From assembly GCF_023650955.1 (NCBI RefSeq), contig NZ_CP098039.1:868001-932000 (forward strand): 64,000 nucleotides of DNA. The letters are read 5' to 3'. Positions 10,421 to 32,841 of the stretch are shown in pieces. Every line of letters begins with the position of its first letter. Position 1 is the first letter of the stretch. Made by a program: the position numbers and the translations under genes. A model generated the notes under the pieces. It had not been told where the DNA came from. It searched no databases and worked only from the letters and a program-made list of their open reading frames with translations. The DNA comes from Thermosynechococcus sp. HN-54. Its GTDB lineage: Bacteria; Cyanobacteriota; Cyanobacteriia; Thermosynechococcales; Thermosynechococcaceae.

Positions 10421-10615
10421 GTATGGTCAAGAAATGCAGATGAAAACAGGCTAACGAATCAGAAAAAAAAGAGGCACAATAGCAAAATACAGCCTTGGTT
10501 CAGATTGATGCCTCAGCCCAGCGATTCGTTTTAGTATTTATTTGGCCAAACTGGGCGATCGCGCGTGGTGCTTCTGAAAAGGGCTGTCACCTCTTTTTGC
10601 TCATCCATTCCGTCC

Positions 10616-11446
10616 ATGTCCTGTTGGCAAGTTGACCTTTACCGACGACCATTGCGTACCCCCACTGGTCTTGATCTTTGGGAACTGGTGATTTGTTCCC
10701 CAGAAGAGAATTTTTACTACACGGCTTTTTGTCCGGAACCTCTAGTGAGCAGTACATGGGTTGCGACAGAACTCAAAAGTTGCGGTCAACCCTTGCCGGA
10801 GCGAGTGCAGGTTTTTCGCCCCCAGAGTTTAGGCATTGTCGAAGCGGCCTGCCAAGAACTCAGCATCCCTCTAGAGGCTACCCGCCGCACCCCCGCCTTA
10901 AAGCACTACCTGCGTCAACGCGCTCAGGAATATGAAAGCCTGAAAACCTACACCGGTGAAGCCTACGATCCATTGGCCATTGAGCAGCCACCCCCCCTGC
11001 CCCTGCCCGATGATATTTGGGGCGACTCTTGGCAGTTTGCAGCGATTACGCCCTCGGATTTACAGCAACTGATGCAGTACCCTTTGCGAATTCTTGCCTT
11101 TGAAATGTCGATGCTGCCGGAGTCCCTAGGCTTGACCGCAGAGACCCTGATTCCGGGCATTATTGTCCATGGAGGCCGCAAGTCATTAAAGCTCGCCCGT
11201 TGGTTCCAAGAGCAAGTGCCCTATCGCCTAGAGTTTCTACCAGGGCAGCCCTGTGGCGTGGTGTTGCACAGTGGCTTGCGCGATCGCTGGGTCTTTTTGA
11301 CGTTTGAGAATGCCGAGGTTGCCAAAGCCGGAGAAATGTTTCGCGATCGCCTGCAAGAAACTCAAGGCTTGCACTTTCTGCTTATCCAACCTACTCCTAG
11401 TGACACCACCTACACGGCTCTGTGGCTGCTCCAGCCCTTGGAATAG
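10616..11446 (+). CDS. Tab2/Atab2 family RNA-binding protein (DUF1092)
   Basis: A 276-residue protein of a family conserved in cyanobacteria and plastids. Plant and algal members (Atab2, Tab2) bind A/U-rich leader RNA and promote translation of photosystem subunits. The diagnostic start is WQVDLYRRPL, and the C-terminus has the WVFLTFENAEVAKAGEMF block and a WLLQPLE end. I chose the ATG at 10616 because the family begins with this Trp-rich stretch; a GTG at 10565 would add 17 residues without similarity. It ends one base before the convergent membrane-protein gene. The role in RNA binding is inferred from the family. Confidence 0.8.
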   Translation: MSCWQVDLYRRPLRTPTGLDLWELVICSPEENFYYTAFCPEPLVSSTWVATELKSCGQPLPERVQVFRPQSLGIVEAACQELSIPLEATRRTPALKHYLRQRAQEYESLKTYTGEAYDPLAIEQPPPLPLPDDIWGDSWQFAAITPSDLQQLMQYPLRILAFEMSMLPESLGLTAETLIPGIIVHGGRKSLKLARWFQEQVPYRLEFLPGQPCGVVLHSGLRDRWVFLTFENAEVAKAGEMFRDRLQETQGLHFLLIQPTPSDTTYTALWLLQPLE

Positions 11447-11447
11447 T

Positions 11448-12938
11448 CTAAGGTTTCGGCATGCTCTGCTCCAGACGTTCCTGAAGCGCACGGGTTTCAT
11501 CGAGAACGGTTTCAATACCTTCGATGTGGGTCTGGCGCACAAAGTTAATTTTCAGTTCCTCTAACCACACCACCAGTAGGTCTTGAATGGCCTTGCCCAC
11601 CTCTTCCTCTTGGAGTTCAGCGGTCAGGGTTTGACCAAATTTTTGCGCCAGTTGACTGACGAGTAATGCCCCTTCGCGGGATGAATTGCCTTGGTTTTTG
11701 CTCGCTTGCTCCAACAGCAGAAAGAGGCGATCGCTAATCTCCTTTGCAAGGGACTGACGCCAGTGGAGGGGTAAGGCCTCAAGGGATGGAATCTCCAATA
11801 ACCGCCGATAAGGGGGCGCTTGCCGTAGGACTTGATCCACGCTGTAGGCCACTAAGCTTTCCACTTCTGGTCGCAGTTGGGGGATCACGCGGTAAATGAC
11901 TACCTGCACAACCAAAGCTGCCAGTTCCCCCAGTTCATCAATGTCATTGAGAGTCTTACTTCCTTGGACGCTAGAGACACTTGGTAGCCAGCGACTAAAT
12001 TGGCCGCGACGGATGGCTTTTTGCAGTTGTGTCAGCACTTGTAGGACAACCACTTCCGAAATATCGGTGGCGATCGCCGCCACCAAGCCCTGAGAGGCCT
12101 GCCGTTCAAGGCTATCGAGGCAGATAATCCCCGCTTGATCGAGGCGAATCGCGACCGGGATAATCCGCAGCCATGCCCACGTCGGTGCCAACCACCAAAA
12201 AGGAAAAAACAAGAGCACATCGTACCAGCGCCAGAACATGGCATCCCGCCAGCGGGCACCGCGATATTGCCGACTCAGCCAAAACGTCCGCCCCAAGAAT
12301 TCCACAAAGAAGAGGAGATTAAAGGGAATATCAATGGCATCAAAGTGGTCAATAAAGTTGCTGTCCTCACCGTAGCCGCGCCAGTAGTTCGTGGCCATCA
12401 AGGGGATAATTTGCTCCTCAAACCAAGCAAGGTTGGTCTGCCAGTCCCGCTCATTGATGTACTCGGCACTCCAAAAGCGCTCAAAGGATTGTTTCGACGA
12501 CGCATCCCGACTGCCAAAGACCCGCAACCGCATCAGGTTCTTGATCCGCTCAAGGGTGCCAGTTTTATTGGCAAGGGCAAAGGGGTTAGTGTCCACCATG
12601 GTTTTACTCTGCTCGCGCAACTGAGCTAGGAGTGCTTGCGTCGCTGGGGCATCCACCCCTTCAGTGGTAATGGTTTGGCGGAGTTGGTTGACCGTGTTGA
12701 TGTACTGTTGAGTTGCGCGGTGGGGCTCGATGCCTTTGATGGGGTCATAAAGAGGGGTAATCGGCAAAGGCTGGGGCAGATAAATCACCCGCTGAATCAG
12801 GGGAATGCGGACTTTTCCCAAAAGCCAGAAATCCCGTAGGGGAATATAGGTGAGATCAAAGAGCACCAACAGGAAATTGACGCTGGCGATCGCCACCATG
12901 ATCCGCTCATAGGTTCGATTCAATGGTTTATCAAACAT
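11448..12938 (-). CDS. Conserved membrane protein with a voltage-sensor-like segment, function unknown
   Basis: I do not recognise a characterised family over the full 496 residues. Visible parts are an N-terminal helix (about 10-32), a long soluble segment (about 50-190), a membrane block (about 195-270) and a soluble helical C-terminus. The membrane block reads FNLLFFVEFLGRTFW, then WRWYDVLLFFPFWW, then WLRIIPVAIRL. This order (acidic S2, D-x(5-6)-P in S3, Arg-bearing S4) resembles a voltage-sensing ion-channel module, but with only two or three basic residues in the S4-like helix and no evident pore. It lies 9 bases after the PstS-like gene on the same strand. ATG 12938 is preferred to GTG 12941. 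Confidence 0.6.
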   Translation of the reverse strand: MFDKPLNRTYERIMVAIASVNFLLVLFDLTYIPLRDFWLLGKVRIPLIQRVIYLPQPLPITPLYDPIKGIEPHRATQQYINTVNQLRQTITTEGVDAPATQALLAQLREQSKTMVDTNPFALANKTGTLERIKNLMRLRVFGSRDASSKQSFERFWSAEYINERDWQTNLAWFEEQIIPLMATNYWRGYGEDSNFIDHFDAIDIPFNLLFFVEFLGRTFWLSRQYRGARWRDAMFWRWYDVLLFFPFWWLAPTWAWLRIIPVAIRLDQAGIICLDSLERQASQGLVAAIATDISEVVVLQVLTQLQKAIRRGQFSRWLPSVSSVQGSKTLNDIDELGELAALVVQVVIYRVIPQLRPEVESLVAYSVDQVLRQAPPYRRLLEIPSLEALPLHWRQSLAKEISDRLFLLLEQASKNQGNSSREGALLVSQLAQKFGQTLTAELQEEEVGKAIQDLLVVWLEELKINFVRQTHIEGIETVLDETRALQERLEQSMPKP

Positions 12939-12947
12939 CACACCCCC

Positions 12948-14006
12948 CTAGCGCAAGCGGACATACCCGGCTTTTTCAATCGCGGCTTGACCCTGATCCG
13001 TCAACAAAAGAGCGGCGTAGGCACGACCGGCTTGGGCATCAGGGCTATTGTCGTCCTTGGCAATCACAAACAGACGACGGGTAATGGGGTAACTGCCATC
13101 CTGAAAGGCACGATAGTTCAGCGTATTCCGCCGCTGTGGACATTGAGCCGGATCCACATAGGGTTCCTGATAGGGAGGCACGTACTGATTGGGCTGCCGC
13201 CCCAAGGGCAAGGGTCGCACACTGCACTGACCAACAATTTCCGGTGCCGAGGCATAGTAAATCCCGCCGGGGGTCGTCCCCACCCGCCGCAGCGCATCCG
13301 TGGTATCCCGTACCATCACCACCTTGGGACTGAATGGCTGGTTCCCCAAGACATCTTGGACGAAAAACTCTACCGTTCCACCATCTTCCAGCCGCCGTGA
13401 AAAGGGGGTAATGGCCAGATTCGGACCGCCCACTTGGCTCCAGTTGCTCACTTTGCCTGTGTAAATATCAACCACTTGTTGCACAGTGAGACCGGGAATC
13501 TGGAGGTTGGGATTGACAGCGATCGCGATGCCATCGATCGCCACCGGCAATTCGACAAGTTTTACCCCTTGACTCTGCGCTTGCTGCCGCTCTTGTGCAT
13601 TCAGGGGGCGCGAAGACTGGGAAAACGCCAGTTGATTGTTCAGTAACATGCGAATACCACTGCCCGATCCGGGAGTGCCCGTGGGTGGATCCGTGTAGCG
13701 CAGCCGAAAATTTGGCCAAGCCGCTTGAATCAGGGGATCGACATCGCGGCGAATTGGCGCCCAGGTCGTACTGCCACCGTACTGAAACATCCCACTGGGA
13801 ACATTACTGACATCACTGAAATTGGCACCTGACATCTCTGGGGTACTCTGCCCCGGCGACGTGGGAGCACCTAACTCTCCAGTCACTTGCTCAAGGGGAT
13901 TTTGATTGCCCAGTAAGCGAATGACCAGCACCGCTCCCACCCCAAGGAGGCCACAGGTGAGGACAAGAGACACCAGCAAGGGCAGCAGGTTACTATTGCG
14001 AGACAT
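12948..14006 (-). CDS. PstS-like phosphate-binding protein, membrane anchored
   Basis: A 352-residue periplasmic binding protein of the PBP-like/PstS type. An N-terminal transmembrane anchor (about residues 8-32) is followed by a Ser/Pro-rich linker and the binding fold. It shows the phosphate-binding signature GGSTTWAPI, then GSGSGIRML and FSQSSRPL, and the hinge block VVDIYTGKVSNWSQVGG. No pstC, pstA or pstB follows; the next gene is a membrane protein of unknown role. The ATG at 14006 is chosen; an in-frame ATG at 14024 adds six residues. It may sense or buffer phosphate rather than feed a Pst transporter; that is inference. Confidence 0.8.
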   Translation of the reverse strand: MSRNSNLLPLLVSLVLTCGLLGVGAVLVIRLLGNQNPLEQVTGELGAPTSPGQSTPEMSGANFSDVSNVPSGMFQYGGSTTWAPIRRDVDPLIQAAWPNFRLRYTDPPTGTPGSGSGIRMLLNNQLAFSQSSRPLNAQERQQAQSQGVKLVELPVAIDGIAIAVNPNLQIPGLTVQQVVDIYTGKVSNWSQVGGPNLAITPFSRRLEDGGTVEFFVQDVLGNQPFSPKVVMVRDTTDALRRVGTTPGGIYYASAPEIVGQCSVRPLPLGRQPNQYVPPYQEPYVDPAQCPQRRNTLNYRAFQDGSYPITRRLFVIAKDDNSPDAQAGRAYAALLLTDQGQAAIEKAGYVRLR

Positions 14007-14095
14007 GGCAGAAGCAGTCAACACTCTGCCCCTAGACTATCTCAAGGTTGTCTCCACTGGAATCTTTTTGCCGCCGGTCTTTAGTTGAAGTAAGT

Positions 14096-15466
14096 TTAAG
14101 TACCAGTACCATGATGCACTGTTTTCACCCACCGCAGACGCTTCGCTCGTACAGCCATGCGCAAGGTGGTGGTACTCACCACTGGTAACCAATGGAGCAT
14201 GTATAGAGTGCCCCGCAAACTCTGCCAAAACAGCTGCCAAATGCCCAGCGATTGAGTTTGAGGAATCCCTCGCAGCATCCCCACCATTGAAATCGTAAAG
14301 CTCAGCGTTGTTAAGGGCACCAACAGGGGACTGCGGTGGCGCAGCACCGCCATCAGCAAGTCTGGAATCGTTGCCGTGGGAATCACATACTTAATCAAAA
14401 ACCAGCAGAGGACATCCCAACTTTTTTGCCAGCCAAGACGATTGCGCAGCAAGGGCTGCCAGTAGTCCAGGTAGCTTTGATAGCCCCCCTCTCCCCAGCG
14501 ATTGCGTTGGTGCCAGAGAGCCACCAAAGTGGTCACCCCCTCCTCCTGTACCGCTGGATTCATTAGCACGTCAATCTCCCAGCCATGGAGGTGCAGTTTC
14601 AGACTGAGATCGAGATCGTCAGTAATGGTTTCTTCATTCCAGCCACCACAGCGCTCTAGGGCTTGCCGCCGCACAAATTGGCCATTGCCACGGAGTTCCC
14701 CCATACCCCCACAGGCCACTCGCTGCTGTTGATAGTAGGCATCGAGGATCATCTCTGCGGCTTGGCCTTGGGTCAGCACATTGATGTCAGCATTACTGAT
14801 CGCTTTGCGCACTTGCACCGCGCCGACATTAGCCACCTGAAAGCGGTTGACCACCTGTTGCAGTAAATCTTGGGGTACCGTGGCATCGGCATCAAAAACA
14901 CCAATAATCTCCCCCCGCGTCAGCGGCAGGACTTGATTGAGGGCACCGGATTTACCCCCGCCCGCCCCTGGCAGTCGCCGTAGCACCTTCAGGTGGGGAT
15001 ACTGCTTTTGTAGTTCGTTCAAAATATCGGGGGTGCGATCGCTACTGTTGTCATCAATAATCCACACCTCGTAGTGGGGATAATCCAAGCGACAGAGGTT
15101 TTTCACTAGGCGACCAATCACCGCTTCCTCATTTTTCGCCGCCACCACCAAGGACACCATGGGCTGCACACTTGCTGTAGCTTCTGATGTAGGTAGTGTT
15201 TGCGGTTTGGCGCGCCAATAGCGCAGTGTTTGCAAACTCATCAAGAGCGTTAAGGCGTAGATCAACCAAATGCCACCCAGAATGAGGTGAATGGCGATCG
15301 TCCCCCCCCAGATGAGAGAGAGGACTAAGAAAGCCTTACGACGGCGACCCTCAGAACGCGGTTGTAATGGAGGACTCTCTGGGGCGTCAACCCACTCCGA
15401 CAGGAGTTCGTCGAGGGGATCGGCTTCGTTGTAGAAACTGTTTTCGGGCCAGGAATTCTCCGGCAT
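14096..15466 (-). CDS. Family 2 glycosyltransferase, membrane bound, processive type
   Basis: A 456-residue enzyme with two transmembrane segments (about 48-80), a cytoplasmic GT-A domain and further C-terminal helices. The D,D,D,QxxRW signature is complete: IIDDNSSDRT, FDADATV (metal-binding DxD), TDDLDLS and HQRNRWGEGG. This is the pattern of cellulose/hyaluronan/poly-GlcNAc-type synthases and of some lipid glycosyltransferases; the sugar product cannot be predicted. The start overlaps the 3' end of the radical SAM gene by 80 bases in another frame. An 89-base gap leads to the PstS-like gene. Confidence 0.88.
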   Translation of the reverse strand: MPENSWPENSFYNEADPLDELLSEWVDAPESPPLQPRSEGRRRKAFLVLSLIWGGTIAIHLILGGIWLIYALTLLMSLQTLRYWRAKPQTLPTSEATASVQPMVSLVVAAKNEEAVIGRLVKNLCRLDYPHYEVWIIDDNSSDRTPDILNELQKQYPHLKVLRRLPGAGGGKSGALNQVLPLTRGEIIGVFDADATVPQDLLQQVVNRFQVANVGAVQVRKAISNADINVLTQGQAAEMILDAYYQQQRVACGGMGELRGNGQFVRRQALERCGGWNEETITDDLDLSLKLHLHGWEIDVLMNPAVQEEGVTTLVALWHQRNRWGEGGYQSYLDYWQPLLRNRLGWQKSWDVLCWFLIKYVIPTATIPDLLMAVLRHRSPLLVPLTTLSFTISMVGMLRGIPQTQSLGIWQLFWQSLRGTLYMLHWLPVVSTTTLRMAVRAKRLRWVKTVHHGTGT

Positions 15467-16394
15467 AGGTCACCTGATTGAGAAACCAGTACTTATCCAC
15501 TCCCTTAAAGAAGCTGGGAATGAGATAACACCACACAGTGCAGCCTTCGCAGACAGAGAGTCGGCCTTGGGAGCGACGATACTCCTCTACCACCTCAGAG
15601 GACTTGTACAGCTCGTACAGGCGACCATTGATGGGGACTCCCTTCTGCGCAAAGTGGTAGCACGGTAGCAGCAACTCATCATTCGGGGAAATGGCAATCA
15701 CTGCATCCACCGCCTTGCAACGGGGATGTTGAGTATTGTTGCCTCCCGCACGAATGAGCGCTAATGCTGCCTTATTGTAACCAACATTGTTATACTTCTT
15801 CGCTGTTTGTTCAATGCGATCAGCAATTTCGGGAGTAGGGTTCTTTTTGTCGTTGTAGTATTCATGGGCAGTAAACGCAGGGTTTAACCAAACCCGTACC
15901 CCTAGGCTCTGGGCAAATTCGGCCACTTCGCCAATGCGTTCATAGTTCTGGGCTGTAACCGTGTGGTTCAGCACGGGATATTCCCCAAGCTCAAGGGCGA
16001 TTTTGACGGATTCCACCAGTGTGTCAAAAATTTTCACCCCCCGTGACTGATCGTGGGTGGCGGCATCAGGGCCATCGAGGGAAAAATTCAAAAAATCTAC
16101 CAAGCCCTGAATTTCCTTGGCGCGACGGGGATAGAGAATGGTATTTGTGGTCATGCTGGTCATAAAGCCGAGACGCTTGGCTTCACGGTAGATAGCTGGA
16201 GCATCGGCACGCAGCAGCGGTTCTCCCCCCGTAAAATCGATATACTTTACGCCCAAGCGTTTCAAATCCCGTAGATTGGTTTGAATGGTACTAAAATCTG
16301 CTTCTTTGCCCGGCTCCAGTGCCCAAATATCGCAAAAGTGGCAGCGAGCATTACAGCGATAGGTCAGGTAGTAGTTAGCAACCAGTGGACGCAT
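15387..16394 (-). CDS. Radical SAM/SPASM-type enzyme
   Basis: A 335-residue enzyme with the canonical CNARCHFC cluster motif (CxxxCxxC, about residues 14-21) for the SAM-binding [4Fe-4S] centre, GGEPLL for SAM binding, and a C-terminal cysteine set (HPRCKAV, LLLPCYHF, and CEGCTVWC near residue 285) consistent with a SPASM or twitch auxiliary cluster. The substrate is unknown. Its last 26 codons overlap the start of the glycosyltransferase gene, so the two are almost surely co-expressed. A role in modifying a peptide or a glycan/lipid precursor for the partner enzyme is conceivable but not shown. Confidence 0.85.
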   Translation of the reverse strand: MRPLVANYYLTYRCNARCHFCDIWALEPGKEADFSTIQTNLRDLKRLGVKYIDFTGGEPLLRADAPAIYREAKRLGFMTSMTTNTILYPRRAKEIQGLVDFLNFSLDGPDAATHDQSRGVKIFDTLVESVKIALELGEYPVLNHTVTAQNYERIGEVAEFAQSLGVRVWLNPAFTAHEYYNDKKNPTPEIADRIEQTAKKYNNVGYNKAALALIRAGGNNTQHPRCKAVDAVIAISPNDELLLPCYHFAQKGVPINGRLYELYKSSEVVEEYRRSQGRLSVCEGCTVWCYLIPSFFKGVDKYWFLNQVTYAGEFLARKQFLQRSRSPRRTPVGVG

Positions 16395-32767: not shown

Positions 32768-32841
32768 GGGACTGTAGTTCAATCGGTTAGAGCACCGCCC
32801 TGTCACGGCGGAAGTTGCGGGTTCGAGCCCCGTCAGTCCCG
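32768..32841 (+). tRNA. tRNA-Asp (anticodon GTC)
   Basis: A 74-base cloverleaf. The acceptor stem GGGACTG pairs with CAGTCCC, followed by discriminator G. The D arm runs GTTC...GAGC, the anticodon stem is CCGCC/GGCGG around CTGTCAC (anticodon GTC), and the T arm is GCGGG TTCGAGC CCCGT. CCA is not encoded. It lies 19 bases before the 3' end of the convergent M23 peptidase gene. Confidence 0.98.

Follow-up and report, generated by a model that had tools for sequence, protein, structure and literature searches.

The window analyzed here is the whole stretch of 64,000 nucleotides (C1:868001-932000) from the 2.7 Mb genome of Thermosynechococcus sp. HN-54. Its closest named relatives, with 84-89% identity, also belong to Thermosynechococcus. 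Two genes lie next to each other on its minus strand. The upstream gene (12948-14024) encodes a PstS-like PBP_like_2 protein of 358 amino acids, or 352 if translation starts at the ATG at 14006, and its sequence reads as having an N-terminal hydrophobic anchor. The downstream gene (11448-12941) encodes a membrane protein that is voltage-sensor-like and has no recognized pore. It is 497 amino acids long from a GTG start and 496 from the ATG at 12938. The gap between the two genes is 6 bases to the GTG, which are filled by GGGGGT, or 9 bases to the ATG. An earlier sequence-only reading of this DNA had placed the open reading frames (ORFs) 9 bases apart and given the second protein 496 residues, and both values hold with the ATG start. 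Both ORFs are genuine genes. The membrane block is kept in 66 aligned homologues, and thus the membrane-protein ORF is not a chance one. It is fairly probable that the two are unrelated genes standing side by side, a PstS-like neighbor and a divergent voltage-sensor-like S1-S4 protein with no recognizable pore.

The two genes are adjacent in nine of the eleven genomes of the window's genus (G000, G001, and G003-G009). The adjacent gene in G006 and G009 is the second PstS match, and the genes are not adjacent in G002 and G010. A total of 66 membrane-protein loci were considered, 8 from this genus and 58 from other genera. Of the 48 loci that were read one gene at a time, six, all from this genus, have a PstS relative no more than six genes away from the membrane-protein gene, and none was found in the 18 further loci. 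Thus, six of the 8 loci of the genus have a PstS relative and two do not, and none of the 58 other-genus loci has one within the stretches read, some of which are short. The sequence-only reading had coupled a phosphate-binding protein to a voltage-sensor-like partner and had let the pair depend on constant adjacency in cyanobacteria. Adjacency is not conserved, being limited to one genus, and the coupling is unsupported. A conserved operon with PstS is ruled out by the same counts. The PstS-like gene is probably a chance neighbor, seen beside the membrane-protein gene only in this genus. Elsewhere, the most common neighbor found is the rimP-nusA-infB cluster, which in 16 of the 48 loci (including L090 and L099) follows the membrane-protein gene in the same orientation. 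The ylxR gene was recognized in 13 of these 16, and the identities of the cluster were checked by Pfam in two loci. None of the loci from the window's genus showed this gene order, which is read as shared genome order, not function.

The PstS-like protein matches Pfam PBP_like_2 with 102.3 bits, above the cut-off of 27, and shares this domain with the PstS/PBP_like_2 phosphate-binding proteins. The window contains no PstC-like gene, and all eight PstC-like matches of the genome are located elsewhere. The earlier description of a phosphate-binding-type protein with no pstCAB beside it is therefore confirmed. Yet the protein falls below the PstS-family NCBIfam cut-off (136 versus 206.6 bits) and, unlike the PstS of a Pst transporter, it is encoded away from pstC-like genes; nor is it a conserved neighbor of the membrane protein. 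There are two pst-like loci elsewhere in the genome; their PstC-like genes, at C1:21875 and C1:1635810, exceed the cut-off. A second permease-like match is present beside each, with a PBP_like_2 gene nearby. In a tree of 26 PstS-like rows, the copies adjoining the membrane protein are unresolved (12 of 21 inner branches are open). The second genus copy (C1:3929-4966) and the genes of other genera form well-supported groups, to which these copies do not belong. The gene beside the membrane protein is taken to be a copy of within-genus origin. In two genera outside this one, a PstS-like gene adjoins a protein kinase gene (L179:4436-7179 and L181:6261-8777), and a link between binding protein and kinase is possible there. 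In the PstS-like gene that adjoins the membrane-protein gene of one Thermosynechococcus assembly (L001:736-1799), the coding sequence is divided between ORFs of 95 and 265 amino acids, which could reflect either a broken gene or a sequencing error.

If the phosphate-binding protein signaled through its voltage-sensor-like partner, a spacing of 6-9 bases and adjacency in nine of the eleven genomes of the genus would fit, and co-transcription within the genus is plausible. However, the pairing is missing in two genomes of the same genus and in all 58 loci read from other genera. The PstS-like gene is split in one adjacent locus, and its relatives in two genera adjoin kinase genes instead. Signaling of this kind appears very improbable.

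The membrane protein was modeled with AlphaFold2 from 43 sequences, with a mean predicted local distance difference test (pLDDT) score of 81.7. Residue numbers given here follow the 497-residue form, and those of the model are one lower. The model helices 5-31, 199-224, 230-250 (in three pieces), and 252-268 correspond to S1-S4. The S1 helix (residues 6-32; 12846-12926, minus strand, as are all of the following features) contains the conserved residues N22, F28, D29, and Y32, with R36 just after it. The loop between S1 and S2 holds a four-helix bundle (residues 75-182; 12396-12719) that is modeled with a pLDDT of 90-98 (model 74-181). S2 (residues 200-225; 12267-12344) carries F211-x2-E214-x3-R218. 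S3 (residues 231-251; 12189-12251), which is broken in the model, carries the invariant D241 and the near-invariant P247. The S4-like helix (residues 253-269; 12135-12185) has R259 and R266, with P262 where a third arginine is expected. It is followed by a helical C-terminal domain (residues 276-497; 11451-12116) that would be cytosolic and whose helices are of lower confidence. The sequence-only reading had described the membrane block as S2-S3-S4-like. The resemblance is upheld, but the description was incomplete, as S1 is also present about 165 residues before S2.

Both ends of the protein are probably cytosolic and the bundle outside the cytosol, because the arginine-rich S2-S3 loop (SRQYRGARWR) fits the cytosolic side. 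Several residues around the bundle are conserved, namely K69 and G70 (each 64/66), W157 (61/66), and R188 (65/66). Its structural matches are generic four-helix bundles, among them the sensor domain of NarX. No clear membrane helix pair of the S5-pore-S6 type follows S4 in the model or by hydropathy. The selectivity-filter motifs GYG or GFG occur in five of the 66 homologues, all positioned before S2. No phosphatase domain is found among the matches of the window protein, nor among the 25 families listed out of 38 for 26 members. Kinship of the C-terminal domain with DUF445 was proposed from weak matches (two of 26 members and one clade consensus with an E-value of 0.0025). It was rejected, with an hhalign score of 19.0 versus 25.1 for the best of 100 shuffles.

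The membrane-protein family is present in 193 of the 242 genomes of the class and in 109 of its 120 genera. A phylum-wide sample of 146 genomes had it in 71, and 11 of these belong to other classes. A profile search of 37 chosen genomes found it in 21, and the 16 without it are those that the first search also missed. With a sister-class member as the query, relatives were found in Halomonas (E 1e-12) and in Acinetobacter baumannii (E 2e-4). The window protein as the query had no match in those gammaproteobacteria, and no match was found to plasmid-borne copies of it. These relatives, of 334 and 348 amino acids, comprise S1-S4 and the C-terminal domain with no insert between S1 and S2; the four-helix bundle is absent from both. 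The relative from Halomonas sp. PA16-9 (L236:2794-3798) is unannotated and has a fuller S4 arginine row; as an experimental target it is preferable to the window protein. The relative from A. baumannii (L237:2752-3798, equal to CP040048.1 404189-405235) is annotated as 'preprotein translocase subunit SecA', a label that looks wrong. Its gene sits between an acyltransferase gene and minCDE. One copy of the membrane-protein gene (G014:C326:1958-3340), in a genome that is 74% complete, is broken by several stop codons. The window protein belongs to no NCBIfam family and has just two sub-threshold Pfam matches, which are unrelated to channels. The family is old and widespread, and carries neither a Pfam nor an NCBIfam name.

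The residues that mark voltage sensors are conserved across the family. According to an excerpt of one source, the S2 pattern [FYW]xx[ED]xxx[RK] has been used to find voltage sensors across life (PMC4878010). It is present at the right place in 58 of the 66 homologues, including the window protein; the set holds 8 close rows of the window's genus, and keeping one of these gives 51 of 59. As a control, 1053 hydrophobic segments from other ORFs were scanned, and five had the pattern anywhere along their length. Of the eight homologues without it, five are sister-class rows that lack the arginine only. Within S2, F211 is conserved in 65, E/D214 in 64, and R218 in 59 of the 66. D241 of S3 is conserved in all 66 and aligns opposite the S3 aspartate of the sensor profile, and P247 is conserved in 65. 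The S4 residues R259 (66/66), R266 (65/66), P262 (55/66), R256 (43/66; alanine in the window protein), and W257 (41/66) are conserved to differing extents. Conservation extends to S1, with Y32 in 66, F28 in 65, D29 in 61 (asparagine in the other five), and N22 in 60, and to R36 after it (65). The combination of F/Y/W, E/D, D, and R at the four key positions is found jointly in 63 of the 66. All seven of the five sister-class and two gammaproteobacterial rows have an S4 with R-x2-R-x2-R-x6-R. The Halomonas relative has F, D, D, and R at the positions of F211, E/D214, D241, and R259.

The family was also compared by hhalign with a sensor profile built from 28 cyanobacterial Ion_trans proteins, two of the initial 30 rows (L147 and L149) having been dropped. 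The E-values given are for one comparison. The S2-S4 blocks, or S1 joined to S2-S4, aligned with probabilities of 72-76%, E-values of 2-3e-5, and scores of 30.8-33.5. With the gammaproteobacterial rows added, the whole family scored 34.0 (78%), and these rows together with seven sister-class rows alone scored 39.9 (90%, E 1.7e-6). The best of 21 mixed control families scored 17.8. This set had few membrane families; hence 12 hydrophobic families were added, the best of which scored 17.0. The family profile thus scores about twice the best control family. The best of 200 shuffles scored 25.6 and 22.0 in two runs with the family blocks and 26.7 in the gammaproteobacterial and sister-class run, versus 39.9. 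Ion_trans is the most common Pfam match, found below threshold in five of 26 members. It covers the S2-S4 part in the four members inspected and S1-S4 in the Halomonas relative. In a profile search of the PDB with S2-S4, five of the seven weak hits were potassium channels (Kv4.2 and AKT5). The resemblance to a voltage sensor that the sequence-only reading had proposed for the membrane block is supported by profile similarity above controls (48-90% depending on the stretch), and it is not accompanied by any significant single-sequence match.

Structural comparison gave modest matches. A model of the S2-S4 segment, built from 61 sequences (pLDDT 76.3), was compared with 15 chains. The best was NavAb, with a Z-score of 4.7 and a root-mean-square deviation (rmsd) of 3.9 over 90 of 107 residues. 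The full model gave a Z-score of 7.2 with KCNQ2, with an rmsd of 12.2 over 170 residues, and a Z-score of 6.1 with the TRPM2 chanzyme, with an rmsd of 3.9 over 114 residues (model 3-282). In Foldseek searches with the whole model, matches to the four-helix bundle and to generic bundles dominate. The first rank is SLC9C1 (E 1.6, probability 0.06), and no voltage-gated channel is among the best 50 of 71 rows.

There are a number of observations that weigh against a voltage-sensor reading of this protein. Neither the full model nor the S2-S4 model had a Foldseek match under an E-value of 0.001, and common arrangements reach Z-scores like that of NavAb. The S3 helix is broken in the model. No single sequence matched over threshold; the best Ion_trans match reached 13.4 bits versus a cut-off of 25, and Ion_trans was matched neither by the window protein nor by the consensus of the whole family or the Acinetobacter relative. 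Longer stretches that contain the insert aligned to the sensor profile with a lower probability (55-62%), though with scores of 33.6-36.9. The full-length comparison reached 48% only (score 40.8), and in most runs the profile alignment ends with S3 or just beyond it. The PDB search with S2-S4 ranked two dehydrogenases first and gave no hit better than an E-value of 0.13. Searches of the PDB with the full family profile and with the gammaproteobacterial and sister-class profile gave no channel, and unrelated proteins came first. Among the relatives, that of Acinetobacter has L, E, E, and R at the four key positions (leucine for F211 and glutamate for D241), and that of Halomonas lacks the S2 arginine. 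The S4 of the window protein has R259 and R266 only, seven residues apart and with a proline between them. An excerpt of one source describes voltage-sensor S4 segments as carrying a basic residue at each third position, 4-6 in all (PMC10651576); this row is not found in the window protein, and S4 is short of charge in its class. The absence of a pore is left in some doubt by a hydropathy peak near residue 294 and by another, near 346, in the window protein. Low confidence and moderate hydrophobicity mark the helix that comes after S4 (about 275-310), and a further membrane segment is possible there. The protein is called voltage-sensor-like, and is not filed as a canonical voltage-sensor domain, because it lacks a significant database match and the S4 charge row, and because the profile alignments mostly stop near S3.

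Even so, S1-S4 quite likely have a voltage-sensor-like fold. The similarity could instead arise from an unrelated helix bundle in which a few residues converged, by chance and through membrane composition. The lack of a significant single-sequence or Foldseek match and the modest structural Z-scores are in line with this. However, the profile scores of 31-40 exceed the best control families (17.0 and 17.8) and every shuffle, and the signature residues of S2 and S3 are in the right register. Ion_trans, the most common Pfam match, also falls on the same segment in the four members examined. Convergence of this sort appears unlikely. Still less likely is an Hv1-like leak of protons or cations through S1-S4 itself. 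Such a leak would suit the acidic S1 residue D29, the lack of a recognized separate pore, and the proline that occupies a place in the S4 arginine row. In other sensors, a smaller side chain for one S4 arginine lets ions through the gating pore, as excerpted from one source (PMC13095418). On the other hand, D29 is replaced by asparagine in five of the 66 homologues. W257 is found in just 41, versus an S4 tryptophan that is totally conserved in Hv1 according to the available part of another source (PMC10377628). The long conserved cytosolic domain also suggests more than a leak.

The question of voltage sensing itself is more evenly weighed. Voltage-insensitive channels carry sensor-like domains. 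The family could have kept the fold and lost the sensing, with the protein acting as an anchor or as a ligand sensor that receives its input through the outer four-helix bundle. Having only two or three S4 arginines, with a proline in S4 in 55 of the 66, would agree with such a loss. So would the outer bundle, which is conserved and confidently modeled, and which matches the structure of the NarX sensor domain along with many generic bundles. Yet few positions of the family vary as little as F211, E/D214, D241, and R259. All four recur, as F, D, D, and R, in the bundle-less Halomonas relative, and the Acinetobacter relative has L, E, E, and R, which would be odd for a mere anchor. A loss of sensing is a real though not a favored possibility, and genuine voltage sensing by the membrane protein is held to be equally possible and equally short of probable.

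If the protein does sense, the most likely mechanism would have an S4 with two or three arginines held by the glutamate or aspartate of S2 and the aspartate of S3. S4 might then shift or tilt in response to the electric field across the membrane or to a signal arriving at the outer bundle. The shift could be relayed through the C-terminal helices to a putative cytosolic partner. By analogy, the action would resemble that of voltage-sensing phosphatases or TMEM266 and would be unlike that of a channel.

On the plus strand, a gene for a Tab2/Atab2-like RNA-binding protein (10565-11446) converges on the membrane-protein gene, and 1 base separates the stops. Upstream of the pair, on the minus strand, there are genes for a family-2 glycosyltransferase and a radical SAM protein (14096-16394), with an overlap of 80 bases by their listed starts. 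These two genes remain together in four other loci of the genus. The only Rfam match at the gathering threshold in the whole window is a tRNA at 32768.

The membrane protein can be set beside two known groups. It has in common with the voltage-sensor domain of cyanobacterial channels (Ion_trans, PF00520) the order of S1-S4, the FxxE/DxxxR of S2, the Asp-x5-Pro of S3, a basic S4, and profile similarity. It differs in having no recognized S5-pore-S6, a large S1-S2 insert, and less S4 charge, and in remaining under the Pfam cut-off. With the eukaryotic pore-less Hv1, voltage-sensing phosphatase, and TMEM266, it shares a sensor-like module that has no pore and an S4 that leads into a cytosolic part. 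Unlike these, it is bacterial, no phosphatase domain was found, the S4 tryptophan of Hv1 is not conserved, and the cyanobacterial members add the outer four-helix bundle. Known prokaryotic sensor domains come with a pore, as stated in the available part of one source (PMC10377628), and Hv channels are described as absent from prokaryotes in excerpts of two (PMC10377628, PMC13095418). Among the matches listed from open-license literature, nothing was found on this family or on pore-less prokaryotic sensors.

It is tentatively proposed, at clearly less than even chances, that bacteria own stand-alone voltage sensors. A pore-less S1-S4 family of Cyanobacteriota and some Gammaproteobacteria would read the membrane potential and signal through a helical cytosolic domain, independently of ion channels, and would either predate eukaryotic Hv1 and voltage-sensing phosphatases or have arisen in parallel with them. 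In cyanobacteria, the potential that is read would perhaps be that of the thylakoid. The gammaproteobacterial relatives have so far been unannotated, called 'hypothetical', or labeled as SecA. If the proposal is true, a pore-less sensor-like family in most of the sampled cyanobacterial genera would change the view that bacterial sensors come only with pores, and it would bear on the origin of Hv1-like and phosphatase-linked sensors. It would also provide a specific candidate for the means by which photosynthetic membranes or bacterial cells sense their electrical potential.

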